A DNA stretch of 64,000 bases from Cytophagales bacterium (GTDB lineage: Bacteria; Bacteroidota; Bacteroidia; Cytophagales; Bernardetiaceae), in the NCBI GenBank assembly GCA_013299045.1, contig JAAFJX010000009.1:1-64000 (forward strand), read 5' to 3'. Below are positions 39,166 to 56,330 of the stretch, in pieces. A program made the position numbers and the translations under genes. Position 1 is the stretch's first letter. Every line of letters starts with the position of its first letter. The notes beneath the pieces were generated by a model. The model was not told where the DNA came from. It made no database searches and saw nothing but the letters and a program-made list of their open reading frames with translations.

Positions 39166-39263
39166 TAGTCTTCCCTGAAAATATATCTAAGATATTTTAA
39201 AGCTAAAAATATTAGTTAATTTGTTGATAATAAATGTTTTATGTACTTTTTCAGGAACGACTA
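39166..39263 (+). mobile_element. MITE-like element, 98 bp
   Basis: Both ends of the window's repeat family meet within 98 bases. The left end is TAGTCTTCCCTGAAAATA; the right end is TTTTTCAGGAACGACTA, whose reverse complement starts TAGTCGTTCCTGAAAA. The interior contains TTAATTTGTTGATAATAAA. There is no coding capacity. It starts 4 bases after the preceding terminator. Confidence 0.7.
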
Positions 39264-39264
39264 T

Positions 39265-39312
39265 TTAACTTGCTGACAATAAAATATTTATATGTTTTTT
39301 TAAGGACAACCA
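39265..39312 (+). repeat. Solitary right end of the same repeat family
   Basis: TTTAACTTGCTGACAATAAA ... TTTTTTTAAGGACAACCA matches the right-end consensus. It stops 1 base before the stop codon complement of the minus-strand gene at 39314. Confidence 0.6.
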
Positions 39313-39313
39313 T

Positions 39314-41554
39314 TTATTTGGCATTCCGCATTTTGCGCAGCCGTTTTTCGTAGGTTTCTATGAGCTTCCAATACACAACAGGAATATCTACAATATATTC
39401 AGCCTCAATGACATAAAGTATAGTGTCTTTGTTGGCGCTAAATTCACAGACGCTCTGAGTTCCAAATAGTATGGTGTCAGTACCAAAAAAGTCTGTCTTT
39501 TTGAGCTTGGCAATACGCTTTTCTTCATAAATAACCTCTATTTCACCTTTTAGTATCATATAAAGGCACTCTTTGGGGCTTAGCACCACCATTTGCCCTT
39601 GCGGCACTTCCATAGGCTGCATTCTTTGCGCTATTCCCGAAAGTATAGGGAAAGACACGACTTCCCCAAATAACCAGGTAGTTTCCAAAAACACAATATT
39701 GGCTTCCAGAAGGCGCAAATCTTCATATAGCTTATTGCGCTCCACAAAATCGTGATAGGCTTCCGAGGGAAGTTCTAAAACACTGATATTGCTGGCAGCC
39801 CAGTAGGTTTCTAGTGCGTCCATGCCCAAAAAGTCAGAGTAGAAGCCTATCAAGGAGCCTGCCGAAAATACATGAACTCCACCTGACTGCGAATCCGTAA
39901 ACTCTACAGAGCCAGTCAGCAGCAAGTAAACGTAACGATTCACCTGCCCTTTTCTGTAAATCATAGAACCTGCATTGAAAGAGCGTATGGGGTGGTTGAG
40001 GAGGTAGCTTATTTCGTAGCTTGGCGCTTTGGGAAAGTAAAAACTAAGGTGCTGGTATGCAAAATCGGCCAGATAATCACGCGAGGCCGGAATGAGTACG
40101 TCTGCCATACCAAAGGCAGAGGAAGAGCCTATTTCGCGCTGGCTCATGGTAAGTGGCTTATGTGTGTGTGCCAGAATGATTTTATCGGACTTATCGTGCC
40201 TAAAGTCCTCATGGTCTCCGTGTATAAGGCCGCCTCCTATGTCAATTTTTTTGAGATTGGCCGGGGCTAAATAATGCTCTTTTACTTTTTTGAAGCGCTC
40301 AAGGCTAATCTGAGGGTCGTTAGCTACCATCTTGCTAAAGGTATTAAGCGCCACTATGTCAGCCAAATGAGCATACACTTTGTACTCACCGTCCCAGCGT
40401 GCTCTAAAAAAGAAGATATTGGTTTCAACGGGGTGTGGAGAATAAATAGGCATAATTTCTAGCCCTTCTACGGCGTTCCAGATGTCAAATTCAAGGTCGC
40501 AGATGTCAAAAAAACTAGAAAAATGTTCTTCTTTGATGGACATAAGTGCGCACAATTTTTTGGTAACAGCACTCCGCACCAACGGCGTAGCAAAATACTT
40601 GAAGCGCCTGTCCGTACGAATGAGCGTGGTTAGCCCTGCAAAATGGTCGTCGTGGGCGTGTGTATGAAAAATGCCTTCAATTTCATTCATGCTGATTCCT
40701 AAATAGTTGAGTGTAGCCGAAATATTAGGCCCCGCATCTATAAGATACACTTTCCCTTGAAAAATGAGCACGGCTGCCATGCAAGGACGGTGTATGTCCC
40801 AGCCGTCGCCTTCGCCTGAATGCACTACCGCCATATATTCGCGCCTAACAGTATGAAAACCAAGCTGATAAGGCGCTTCATATTTTTCATTTGGCTGTAA
40901 GTTTAAGTCCACTTGTACCTTTTCATCTTTATAAGAAATTTCGTACTTGTTTAGCCCCAGGCGTTTAACAAAAACCGAGTTACGAAGTTCTACTGGCTTG
41001 CTGCCCAAAAAGCGGTTATCTAAGAGTTCATTTGCAGAGGATATTTTGCCAAAAGCAAAGTTGAGCTTAATGCGCATCATTTCTTCGGCTAGCTTAGGTT
41101 CAATGCCCGCGTCCATGATTTCTTGCAGATTGACAAGGCCATAGTTTCCTCTAAAAATATATTCAATTTGGGCGCGTACCTGCTCTTCAAGACCAATCAA
41201 CATAGGTTTTACACCTGTGTTGTTGGGGTGGTTCGGAATAATCATGCCTTGCAAATAAAGCATTTGCAGAACAGGAAACTCCGTCAGGTTAGAAAATGAA
41301 CCATTCTGAATGAGTACGTCTGACAGCAAAATAGCATTAGGCCCAGATTCAAAAGAAACCCCGCTCGTATCTTGCGATTCTACAAGACCTCGTTTTTTGA
41401 GGTGCTTGACGGTGTCGGCAGGGCAGCCGCAGAGCAAATAGATTTGCGCTTCGGGCACTTCCACCCAATAAATGCCCGTACTCACCTTAATCTTTTTAAT
41501 CTTAGTATTGACTAAGGCTGGAGAGGGCGAGGCTTGTTTGTCGCGGCTGGTCAT
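39314..41554 (-). CDS. Metallo-beta-lactamase fold protein with two cyclic-nucleotide-binding-like domains
   Basis: A ~746-residue cytosolic protein. An N-terminal ~200-residue region of unknown function precedes a metallo-beta-lactamase domain with the metal motif H299-x-H301-x-D303-H304 (in HTHAHDDH), then SPHPVETNIFFF, the Asp of HLADIV and a late His in ILAHTHKP. Two cNMP-binding-like beta-rolls follow (about 515-615: SMIYRKGQVNRYVYLLLTGS; about 645-735: MVVLSPKECLYMILKGEIEV). Such a build suggests a hydrolase or oxygen/redox-type diiron centre gated by a ligand-binding sensor module; ligand and substrate are unknown. ATG 41554 was chosen: a TTG 30 bases upstream overlaps the -7 element. 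Confidence 0.85.
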   Translation of the reverse strand: MTSRDKQASPSPALVNTKIKKIKVSTGIYWVEVPEAQIYLLCGCPADTVKHLKKRGLVESQDTSGVSFESGPNAILLSDVLIQNGSFSNLTEFPVLQMLYLQGMIIPNHPNNTGVKPMLIGLEEQVRAQIEYIFRGNYGLVNLQEIMDAGIEPKLAEEMMRIKLNFAFGKISSANELLDNRFLGSKPVELRNSVFVKRLGLNKYEISYKDEKVQVDLNLQPNEKYEAPYQLGFHTVRREYMAVVHSGEGDGWDIHRPCMAAVLIFQGKVYLIDAGPNISATLNYLGISMNEIEGIFHTHAHDDHFAGLTTLIRTDRRFKYFATPLVRSAVTKKLCALMSIKEEHFSSFFDICDLEFDIWNAVEGLEIMPIYSPHPVETNIFFFRARWDGEYKVYAHLADIVALNTFSKMVANDPQISLERFKKVKEHYLAPANLKKIDIGGGLIHGDHEDFRHDKSDKIILAHTHKPLTMSQREIGSSSAFGMADVLIPASRDYLADFAYQHLSFYFPKAPSYEISYLLNHPIRSFNAGSMIYRKGQVNRYVYLLLTGSVEFTDSQSGGVHVFSAGSLIGFYSDFLGMDALETYWAASNISVLELPSEAYHDFVERNKLYEDLRLLEANIVFLETTWLFGEVVSFPILSGIAQRMQPMEVPQGQMVVLSPKECLYMILKGEIEVIYEEKRIAKLKKTDFFGTDTILFGTQSVCEFSANKDTILYVIEAEYIVDIPVVYWKLIETYEKRLRKMRNAK

Positions 41555-53295: not shown

Positions 53296-53447
53296 TAGTC
53301 GTCCCTTAAAAAACCTCTAAGGTATTCGTTATCAATAAATTATTATTTAATTTGTTTGAAAAAATCTGCTAGGTTTAGGATATTTGCCTTGTAAACCTTG
53401 CAAATAATCGTGATGATTGCAAGCAGAAAACCAAATGGCTTGTTCTT

Positions 53448-53753
53448 TTGTTTTTTGGATACGCTCAACCCCAAATACCTGCTCTATCTCTTGCCAGCAA
53501 GATAGACTGGACGGTTTTTGAAACGGAATTTGCCCCTTTGATAACCACAATCCGGGCAAAACCCATTCGCTTCATGGTGGGCTTGCTGAGTTCAAACATC
53601 TTCGTAATGTATCCGATGAAAGCGTGCTTACAGAGATGTTTATTCCTAAAAATCAAGTACTTATTACCAGAAAAAAAACTCTGTGAGGCGCATAAAAAAA
53701 GAGCAGATATAGAAGCTGTCATACGGAAAGCATCTTTTTGGCGCGTGTTCTAA
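53448..53753 (+). pseudogene. IS5/IS1182-type transposase remnant
   Basis: Frame 53448 gives SLASKIDWTVFETEFAPL and AKPIRFMVGLL, matching the N-terminal domain of IS5/IS1182-like transposases. A frameshift leads to FKHLRNVSDESVL, the continuation of the same domain. A third piece, AHKKRADIEAVI, resembles the C-terminal catalytic region and ends FWRVF-stop. Most of the catalytic core is deleted. The last codons and 3' flank (53737-53781) reappear at 56228-56271. Confidence 0.7.
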
Positions 53754-53834
53754 AAAATTATTCCCGCATTGCAAAGCGTTTCATAAATATCCAATATATT
53801 TATGTTTCTTAAATCTGAGTTATTCAGGAAGACT
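53735..53834 (+). repeat. Right end of IS remnant, diverged copy
   Basis: The sequence from TTTTTGGCGCGTGTTCTAAA to TTATTCAGGAAGACT matches the 56228-56330 right end in its first ~48 bases and is diverged at the terminus. Confidence 0.55.
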
Positions 53835-53837
53835 CGT

Positions 53838-54613
53838 TACTAATCATTCCTCTAATGAAGCAATTTGTTGATATACGCGCTTTTGATTTAAAACAATGGG
53901 CTATCTTGGCCTCATTACTTGCGTTATCGGTTTGCTTTCATGTCTTCACGCATGAGTTGGGGCATTTTGCCTTCGCTCATGCGTTCGGTTGCAAAAAGAT
54001 TATTTTGCATCACGTGAGCGTAGAGACGGGCGATTATCCCAGTACAAAACGGCTCGACAGTCTTGGTGAAGTGTTGTCGGCTGTCCCTTTTGAAAAAATG
54101 GAAGAACACCCCGTCTATCCAGAGTTTTCTAAAGAGGTGGTTCATCAGTTATATGTCCCTAGTTTCTGGATTTTTTCTGGCGGACAACTCGTTAATCTGC
54201 TTATAGGGCTTGTTGCGGCGGTACTCTTGGGTAAAAGAGGCTCTATTGACATTCTGGGCAGTTTCTATCAGAAGTTAAAATTTGCGCTCGCAATGGCTTT
54301 GCCACAATTTTTAGCAGATTTTCTTTCTGTATTACTTCTTTTTCTAAAGAACAAGCCCACAAAGCACAAAGGCGATAGCATGAATATGGGCTATTATTTC
54401 CGTCATATTTTTTTTGAAGAGCAAACATACTGGGACTATTTTTTTGTTGGTCTTGCGGGTGTTATTGGTCTTGCGGGTCTATATTATCTTTTTTGGTATC
54501 TTTTGAAGCCAACAGAAAGGGCAACTGTTTGGGCAGCAGCGCTCGTCGGAATCCCTTTAGGTGCTTATCTTTGGCAGGGGCCGCTGGGCAAGTTCTTGTT
54601 GCCATAGTTTGGA
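53838..54613 (+). repeat. 776-bp direct repeat, copy 1
   Basis: Identical by eye to 55452-56227 (offset 1614). It begins with the last Tyr codon plus stop of the lipoprotein gene (TACTAATCATTCC) and ends GTTTGGA just after the protease stop. Confidence 0.9.
53855..54607 (+). CDS. M50-like membrane zinc metalloprotease, copy 1
   Basis: The 250-residue polytopic protein has a first hydrophobic helix (about residues 15-31) running into H33-E34-L-G-H37, the HExxH zinc motif seen in site-2-protease (M50) enzymes. Further helices lie at about 104-125 (FWIFSGGQLVNLLIGLVAAV), 145-167 (with Asp near 156, FLADFLSVL, a possible third metal ligand), 198-220 and 225-243. The loop SGGQLVN resembles the conserved Gly/Asn loop of M50, but the classical NPDG motif is absent, so activity is inferred, not shown. 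The product is identical to that of the gene at 55469. A 1.6-kb unit with a lipoprotein gene separates the copies. Confidence 0.65.
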   Translation: MKQFVDIRAFDLKQWAILASLLALSVCFHVFTHELGHFAFAHAFGCKKIILHHVSVETGDYPSTKRLDSLGEVLSAVPFEKMEEHPVYPEFSKEVVHQLYVPSFWIFSGGQLVNLLIGLVAAVLLGKRGSIDILGSFYQKLKFALAMALPQFLADFLSVLLLFLKNKPTKHKGDSMNMGYYFRHIFFEEQTYWDYFFVGLAGVIGLAGLYYLFWYLLKPTERATVWAAALVGIPLGAYLWQGPLGKFLLP

Positions 54614-54787
54614 ACAAGATACCCTTAAAATAGTTTTTTACTAAGCAAAGGCTGGCAGCTATTAGAAATTTTATTGTTATGCAATAAATCTACTTTTTTC
54701 TCGTTTTAGGGGTGTACTCCCTTTTTGTTATTTAAACTTTTGGTTGTACATTAAATAAACCTTTGTTTTCTTAAATTCTTTAGCATT
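54614..54787. other. Spacer between protease copy 1 and lipoprotein gene
   Basis: 174 AT-rich bases that presumably carry the lipoprotein gene's promoter. No exact TAnnTTTG was seen. Confidence 0.35.
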
Positions 54788-55457
54788 ATGAAAAACACAA
54801 TTCGTTCTTCGTTCTTCGTTCTTCGTTGTAGCTTGTAGCTTTTTGTTTCTATTAAGTAGCTGCGGCAAAGACGAAAAAATTATCATAGAAGAAACCAAAA
54901 TACTTGCCGCTAACAATGAGTATGAAAATTACTGTGATTATTGCTGTAAAAATCAAGGGGTTGGCTGCCCAAATCATTGTGATTGTGATGCAATACTTAA
55001 CCCTACTCGTGGTATATGTGAAGGTGAAACAGTCGCTCGGGCAAAAGCGTCAAATTATGATGCCTTCATTAACCCCTTTCACTTAGTAAAGAATAAATTA
55101 CTAGCGGATAGTTCTTCTGTTAGTATGGATATACTGACTATTTACTATGGTCATCCAGGCCAAGTTACTGATATTTTGCTTCATGATAGCGCACTTATGC
55201 TCGCTGCCTATAATTTAATGGTTAATCTGACACCATATATGCTAGACTTCGCAAATGATAACAGCAATAGCGCTACGCTAATCACGTCTGAACTTGTATT
55301 ACAAATTCAGGCATTTATCAATCAAATCGTTTCAGCCAGTAGTCCGCAAAGCCCTTTAGCTACAGATTTGAACTTCATGATAAATAAACTCAATCTAAAC
55401 ACTTTAGTAGGCTTGAATGCCGTACAAGCATGGGCTGCAATCAAAGCTAGCTACTAA
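54788..55457 (+). CDS. Cys-rich lipoprotein, out of frame with its likely start (possibly phase-variable)
   Basis: The frame ending at 55457 is open from about 54843 (LFLLSSC, a lipobox with Cys at 54861). The only good start, ATG 54788 (MKNTIRSS), is in another frame and meets a stop at 54836. Removing one 7-base unit (two instead of three) joins them into a normal lipoprotein signal peptide of 22 residues before the Cys; five units would also be in frame. The mature ~199 residues begin CGKDEKIII and carry a Cys cluster (YCDYCCKNQGVGCPNHCDCD), then a helical, Leu/Asn-rich body. No family was recognised. The stop is 11 bases before protease copy 2, suggesting cotranscription. A TTG start at 54843 would give a product without a proper signal. 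Confidence 0.6.
54801..54827 (+). repeat. Heptanucleotide tract (CGTTCTT)3 in the signal-peptide region
   Basis: Three perfect CGTTCTT units (54803-54823) are flanked by partial units (TT before, CGTT after). The tract lies 13 bases after ATG 54788. A change of one unit shifts the frame, so unit number decides whether the downstream lipoprotein is translated. Confidence 0.9.
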
Positions 55458-56227
55458 TCATTCCTCTAATGAAGCAATTTGTTGATATACGCGCTTTTGA
55501 TTTAAAACAATGGGCTATCTTGGCCTCATTACTTGCGTTATCGGTTTGCTTTCATGTCTTCACGCATGAGTTGGGGCATTTTGCCTTCGCTCATGCGTTC
55601 GGTTGCAAAAAGATTATTTTGCATCACGTGAGCGTAGAGACGGGCGATTATCCCAGTACAAAACGGCTCGACAGTCTTGGTGAAGTGTTGTCGGCTGTCC
55701 CTTTTGAAAAAATGGAAGAACACCCCGTCTATCCAGAGTTTTCTAAAGAGGTGGTTCATCAGTTATATGTCCCTAGTTTCTGGATTTTTTCTGGCGGACA
55801 ACTCGTTAATCTGCTTATAGGGCTTGTTGCGGCGGTACTCTTGGGTAAAAGAGGCTCTATTGACATTCTGGGCAGTTTCTATCAGAAGTTAAAATTTGCG
55901 CTCGCAATGGCTTTGCCACAATTTTTAGCAGATTTTCTTTCTGTATTACTTCTTTTTCTAAAGAACAAGCCCACAAAGCACAAAGGCGATAGCATGAATA
56001 TGGGCTATTATTTCCGTCATATTTTTTTTGAAGAGCAAACATACTGGGACTATTTTTTTGTTGGTCTTGCGGGTGTTATTGGTCTTGCGGGTCTATATTA
56101 TCTTTTTTGGTATCTTTTGAAGCCAACAGAAAGGGCAACTGTTTGGGCAGCAGCGCTCGTCGGAATCCCTTTAGGTGCTTATCTTTGGCAGGGGCCGCTG
56201 GGCAAGTTCTTGTTGCCATAGTTTGGA
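55452..56227 (+). repeat. 776-bp direct repeat, copy 2
   Basis: Identical by eye to 53838-54613. Because it starts within the last codon of the lipoprotein gene, this copy is in the natural context and copy 1 is probably the duplicate. Confidence 0.9.
55469..56221 (+). CDS. M50-like membrane zinc metalloprotease, copy 2
   Basis: Its 250-residue product is identical to that of the gene at 53855: HELGH at residues 33-37 at the end of the first membrane helix, and five or six predicted helices. It starts 11 bases after the lipoprotein stop, so lipoprotein and protease form a natural pair. An intramembrane protease acting on, or controlled by, the neighbouring lipoprotein is a reasonable hypothesis only. 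Six bases after its stop, the sequence switches to the IS right end. Confidence 0.65.
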   Translation: MKQFVDIRAFDLKQWAILASLLALSVCFHVFTHELGHFAFAHAFGCKKIILHHVSVETGDYPSTKRLDSLGEVLSAVPFEKMEEHPVYPEFSKEVVHQLYVPSFWIFSGGQLVNLLIGLVAAVLLGKRGSIDILGSFYQKLKFALAMALPQFLADFLSVLLLFLKNKPTKHKGDSMNMGYYFRHIFFEEQTYWDYFFVGLAGVIGLAGLYYLFWYLLKPTERATVWAAALVGIPLGAYLWQGPLGKFLLP

Positions 56228-56330
56228 TTTTGGCGCTTGTTCTAAAAAATTATTCCCGCTTTGCAAAGCGTTTGCCTAACAGTTAATTTATTGATGGTAA
56301 ATGTTTTGGATACATTTTAAGGAACGACTA
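56228..56330 (+). repeat. Right end of IS remnant bordering the island
   Basis: It begins with a homologue of the transposase tail (TTTTGGCGCTTGTTCTAAAA, reading FWRLF-stop), repeats 53737-53781 nearly exactly, and ends AAGGAACGACTA. It stops 1 base before the symporter stop codon. Confidence 0.75.

Follow-up and report, generated by a model that had tools for sequence, protein, structure and literature searches.

The opa genes of Neisseria carry CTCTT repeats in the codons of the leader peptide (PMC5354566, PMC3960869), and opa tracts as short as (CTTCT)2 exist (PMC5320596). For the Bacteroidota, the literature on phase variation that we searched describes DNA inversion. Here, we analyse a lipoprotein gene of a Cytophagales bacterium whose 5′ coding region holds a tandem repeat with a unit (7 nt) not divisible by three. 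The proteins encoded in the genome, a GldM-like ORF among them, suggest membership of the Bacteroidota. Among the described systems, the locus would work most like opa, in which a pyrimidine-rich pentamer switches each copy of a multigene family (PMC5354566, PMC3960869). In the following, the window is the whole stretch of 64,000 nucleotides that was analysed.

Results

Two heptamer arrays in the leader of a lipoprotein gene

The leader, as it stands in the window, extends from ATG 54788 to a TAG at 54836–54838 (54788–54838, + strand) and reads MKNTIRSSFFVLRCSL in the present frame. It contains an array of three CGTTCTT units plus partial copies (54801–54827, + strand; 3.9 copies of the 7-mer with a 100% match), located within the codons for the hydrophobic core of the signal peptide. 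The run of positions identical at a lag of 7 is 20 bases at the tract, whereas none of 20 simulated 64-kb sequences had a run longer than 10, indicating that the array is not explained by chance. It is the sole array with at least three exact copies and a period of 4–24 in the window. With a single array of this type in the window, there is no clear sign that the organism abounds in such switches.

The lipobox, LFLLSSC, is in the +1 frame relative to the frame of ATG 54788. The lipobox frame (LFLLSSCGK...) is uninterrupted from 54843 to 55457 (+ strand) and comprises 204 codons, with a Cys-rich N-terminal part (CxxCC...CxxxCxC). The sequence therefore confirms the anatomy given in the original prediction (ATG 54788, three CGTTCTT units and a partial one, TAG 54836, and a lipobox open in another frame), with the correction that the lipobox Cys is followed by 197 codons rather than 199. 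From the upstream TGA to where the hydrophobic core ends, the lipobox frame has no start codon; the only one at this locus is TTG 54843. Therefore, the lipoprotein needs ATG 54788 together with a change of frame.

Frame arithmetic defines the outcome for each repeat number. With two, five, or eight CGTTCTT units, the ATG is joined to the lipobox, giving products of 220, 227, and 234 aa, respectively, and it is only at these numbers that the n-region and the hydrophobic core share the frame of the lipobox (LSSC/LGSC, present at the window locus and at the second locus described below). With zero, one, three, four, six, or seven units, the products are peptides of 9–23 aa. At both loci, one repeat number in three thus gives the full-length protein and the rest give a premature stop. 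The same arithmetic bears out the earlier claim that losing one unit or having five would join the two parts, and that three or four end at a stop. The two-unit leader at the window locus would read MKNTIRSSFFVVACSFLFLLSSC, a full lipoprotein signal peptide.

A second heptamer array, TTGTAGC x2.3 (54826–54841, + strand), supplies two TAGs (54829–54831 and 54836–54838), which are 7 nt apart, hence in different frames, and close both wrong frames. The first TAG is in frame with one, four, or seven CGTTCTT units and the second with zero, three, or six, and the ON frame passes through both as V-V-A-C-S. Removing one TTGTAGC copy would likewise restore the lipobox frame.

The lipoprotein matches no family in Pfam or NCBIfam. 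Its AlphaFold model has a mean pLDDT of 55.6 and no PDB match at E ≤ 0.001, so we propose no fold for it. The lipobox suggests that the protein is located on the surface. Defence-system models gave no match. Upstream of the gene, between it and the first of two M50-like gene copies, a terminator-like hairpin is followed by a T-run (54708–54723, + strand; a match to the consensus only).

A diverged paralogue with the same arrangement

Triple CGTTCTT occurs at just two places in the 4.06-Mb genome, and both are the start of a gene from one lipoprotein family. The second place is position 82337 of another contig, C48, and the product encoded there is 52–54% identical to the window lipoprotein. 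The C48 locus has three CGTTCTT units, TTGTAGT x2, a matching TAG, and a matching off frame; the unit counts are equal at the two loci, with exactly three CGTTCTT and two TTGTAGY at each. The double stop (a TAG in each wrong frame, with the right frame reading through) is found in both paralogues, the second heptamer being TTGTAGY x2. In the lipobox frame, the only starts at the C48 locus are a TTG and a CTG immediately before the lipobox, and a two-unit C48 leader would read MKNSVRSSFFVVVCSLFVLLLGSC, a good signal peptide. We considered the homogenisation of TTGTAGC x2 and TTGTAGT x2 as a trace of past slippage, but dropped it, as another gap placement in the alignment accounts for the pattern too.

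The gene 3′ of the C48 lipoprotein gene is M50-like and 52% identical to the partner gene in the window. The C48 pair is flanked by a nucleoside-transporter-like gene and, on the other strand, an OmpA-like gene (L002 1–3021, L014), and has no element ends right beside it. When the leader DNA was compared with the rest of the genome, no significant match was found beyond the C48 copy, and the genome contains no further lipoproteins bearing a leader of the MKNTIRSSFFVLRCSL type.

Comparing the lipoprotein frame of the two paralogues gives a pN of 0.30 and a pS of 0.79 (saturated), with identities of 64, 75, and 40% at the three codon positions. Because pS is saturated while pN is 0.30, this pattern indicates that the lipobox frame has long been translated and is under purifying selection. 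Mutations accumulating downstream, which the original prediction had named as the sign of a plain pseudogene, were not found: neither the window gene (204 codons) nor the C48 gene (210 codons) has a stop or frameshift inside its body.

The leader is far more similar than the sequence that follows. The 51-nt leaders match at 47 of 51 positions, while the best 51-nt window elsewhere matches at 40 in the lipoprotein gene and 44 in the M50-like gene, and the longest exact word common to the paralogues is 31 nt in the leader versus 12 nt elsewhere. Of the conserved residues, 12 of 13 in the leader are encoded by the same codon in both copies, versus 101 of 222 in the part that follows (Fisher p = 0.0008), in a test that compares two sequences only and has little depth. 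Such conservation suggests that the tract is selected for its nucleotide sequence, or that the copies have exchanged it. Because the leader is near-identical while downstream sites are saturated, one sequencing error or a single old pseudogene does not fit; on these comparisons, the former is excluded and the latter unlikely. The paralogue comparison alone fails to separate a switch from recoding.

The M50-like genes and the flanking element

The partner gene 3′ of the window lipoprotein gene (55469–56221, + strand) encodes an M50-like membrane protein with the motif HELGH; the match to PF02163 (E 0.0023, 17.8 bits) is under the 27.2-bit cut-off. The gene order is repeated at the C48 locus and in a genome from the order of the source genome (G147), and suggests a functional link between the lipoprotein and the M50-like protein. 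A second M50-like gene, with an identical ORF, is located 5′ of the lipoprotein gene (53855–54607, + strand). The two M50-like genes are each held by one copy of a perfect 775-nt direct repeat (left copy, 53839–54613; right copy, 55453–56227; both + strand), and the copies, 1614 bp from start to start, bracket the lipoprotein gene. If the copies recombined, 1614 bp would be lost and the lipoprotein gene with them, and the perfect repeat is a possible assembly risk. The direct repeat, the TTGTAGC x2.3 array, and the C48 paralogue are additions to the original prediction.

The M50-lipoprotein-M50 cassette is enclosed by remnants of a dispersed IS/MITE-like family whose ends are TAGTCGTYCCTTAAAA, in agreement with the earlier description of a mobile-looking island. 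On the left is a degraded part of the element (53296–53804, + strand) with the terminal inverted repeat TAGTCGTCCCTTAAAA and 53 matching pieces genome-wide, and on the right is an end from the same family (56228–56330, + strand) with the end sequence TTTTAAGGAACGACTA. The ORF at 53448–53753 resembles a transposase relic and matches no Pfam family. Elsewhere in the window, a 49-bp unit x2.1 at 39216–39316, with the terminal sequence TTTTTAAGGAACAACCAT, resembles the end of this IS/MITE-like element. No invertible segment was seen around the lipoprotein gene.

Homologues in other genomes

Homologues of the lipoprotein were searched for in 98 relatives, the GTDB species genomes, viral contigs, 390 genomes of the order, 395 genomes of the phylum, plasmids, and the family of G147, which yielded only the C48 paralogue, a relative in G147, and a fragment in G044. 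The last is spurious, as it contains three stops and lies inside unrelated genes. In G147, the lipoprotein gene is paired with an M50-like gene, has an in-frame stop, and is cut by the end of the contig. Among the relatives, the GTDB species genomes, and the order, phylum, and G147-family genomes searched, none had a homologue whose leader is intact and in frame. The DNA pattern ATGAAAAAN{0,30}CGTTCTTCGTTSTW has six matches in 85,000 species genomes, all unrelated. A Bacteriovoracaceae MAG contig (L022 5438–5492) ends within a heptamer array of CGTTCTT units (TTCGTTCTTCGTTCTTCGTTCTT) behind an ATG, so that the gene is unreadable further.

Of 395 genomes in the class, 16, the source genome included, encode relatives of the M50-like protein, and most of these relatives have no lipoprotein neighbour. 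In one genome of the class (G799; L046 796–1920), an unrelated-looking lipoprotein with an ordinary signal peptide directly precedes a short M50-like gene, and in one genome of the family (G004; L013 2326–3506), the gene before the M50-like gene encodes a secreted protein of 152 aa that is of a different type.

Discussion

We favour, with a probability of roughly 0.55, an opa-type slippage switch in the signal-peptide codons, which would be OFF at both loci in the sequenced clone. In the proposed mechanism, slipped-strand mispairing would add or remove one 7-bp unit and thereby bring ATG 54788 into the lipobox frame or take it out of that frame. A full lipoprotein signal peptide would be produced at two, five, or eight CGTTCTT units (MKNTIRSSFFVVACSFLFLLSSC at two), and at the remaining numbers, translation would halt at one of the two TAGs that immediately follow the tract. 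The neighbouring M50-like membrane protein and the mature lipoprotein probably act together. The proposal rests on the observed anatomy, the frame arithmetic, the identically arranged paralogue, the purifying selection downstream, and the nucleotide conservation of the leader, from which we infer an actual change of unit number. The original prediction of a phase-variable surface lipoprotein is thus supported in part: the tract shared with the diverged paralogue, the off frame, the purifying selection, and the double stop agree with it, but the unit number is equal at both loci, 3.9 copies is short, and the surface location is suggested by the lipobox. With a count of three at both loci, the gene cannot be filed as proven phase-variable, and a tract of 3.9 copies may slip at a rate close to background.

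The arrangement could instead reflect a decayed state shared by dead or dying genes, in which the extra heptamer arose in each gene or spread by gene conversion and the downstream selection belongs to the past. Neither locus is in the ON phase in the sequenced clone, the region is dynamic, with its perfect 775-nt duplication and element remains, and the G147 relative holds an in-frame stop, with its contig ending within the gene. However, the open frames of 204 and 210 codons show no additional damage, and a gene broken before the duplication would not have held its reading frame until synonymous sites were saturated. An identical +7 event occurring twice independently is unlikely, as is the conversion of a tract of merely ~31–40 nt between diverged flanks. 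We therefore consider decay unlikely. Sequencing or assembly error deserves hardly any weight: the genome is a draft of 79 contigs and the nearby perfect 775-nt repeat could trouble assembly, but an independent locus, on a different contig, shows the identical arrangement, and the 27-bp array is shorter than any read length.

A programmed +1 frameshift in the leader, which would give a regulated level of protein from the three-unit sequence, is, among the rivals, the one that best accounts for finding equal unit counts at the two loci. Two diverged genes, albeit two sequences only, share the repeat number, the frame break, and a near-identical leader, and a conserved frameshift site is a hallmark of recoding in the GeneTack classification (PMC3711429). 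Nevertheless, we regard such recoding as improbable: a prfB-like slippery sequence (CUU UGA) is missing, the in-frame stop being a UAG after UUG; the RNA folds of the two leaders are weak and unlike (z −1.2 and −2.0), supporting no stimulatory structure; and the first TAG, outside the present frame, is conserved although recoding needs no such stop, a conservation that the protein frame could explain. Alternatively, the 16-residue ORF, which is conserved in both copies, could be a regulatory leader peptide, with the downstream ORF starting by re-initiation at TTG 54843 or elsewhere. A repeat-based, attenuation-like mechanism is known for pil1 of Streptococcus gallolyticus (PMC3894217). The product of re-initiation at the TTG, however, would have neither n-region nor hydrophobic core, yet the lipobox is kept in both copies, which makes this alternative very improbable. 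That the three-unit leader is a conserved recoding or leader-peptide element, in which a non-prfB +1 frameshift would proceed from the out-of-frame start and the two TAGs would set the default to off, is likewise improbable.

If the slippage switch is real, it would bring opa-kind switching to the Bacteroidota, through a coding heptamer in the lipoprotein signal peptide of two diverged paralogues. A tract followed by tandem stops in two frames would then be a simple sequence signature for finding more switches.

As in Neisseria opa, a short tandem repeat with a unit that is not a multiple of three lies in signal-peptide codons, in several paralogous genes for outer-envelope proteins (PMC5354566, PMC3960869). 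The locus differs from opa in its 7-nt unit (versus 5), its ~4 copies (versus commonly 11–30), its two genes (versus ~12), its product, a lipoprotein, and the equal repeat length of both loci. The hmw1A and hmw2A genes of Haemophilus influenzae share the 7-bp unit and a surface protein as the product, but the main hmw tracts have 13–38 copies and lie in the promoter, where they alter transcription, whereas the tract described here is coding and short (PMC2651432). P78 of Mycoplasma fermentans, as presented where PMC3711429 cites it, is likewise a phase-variable lipoprotein with a frameshift tract, although that tract is poly-A and the gene belongs to an ABC-transporter operon in the Mollicutes. 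Bacteroides fragilis, also of the Bacteroidota, phase-varies surface functions (capsule, SusC/SusD genes) (PMC11868660); there, the variation is driven by invertases through site-specific inversion, whereas slippage is proposed here.
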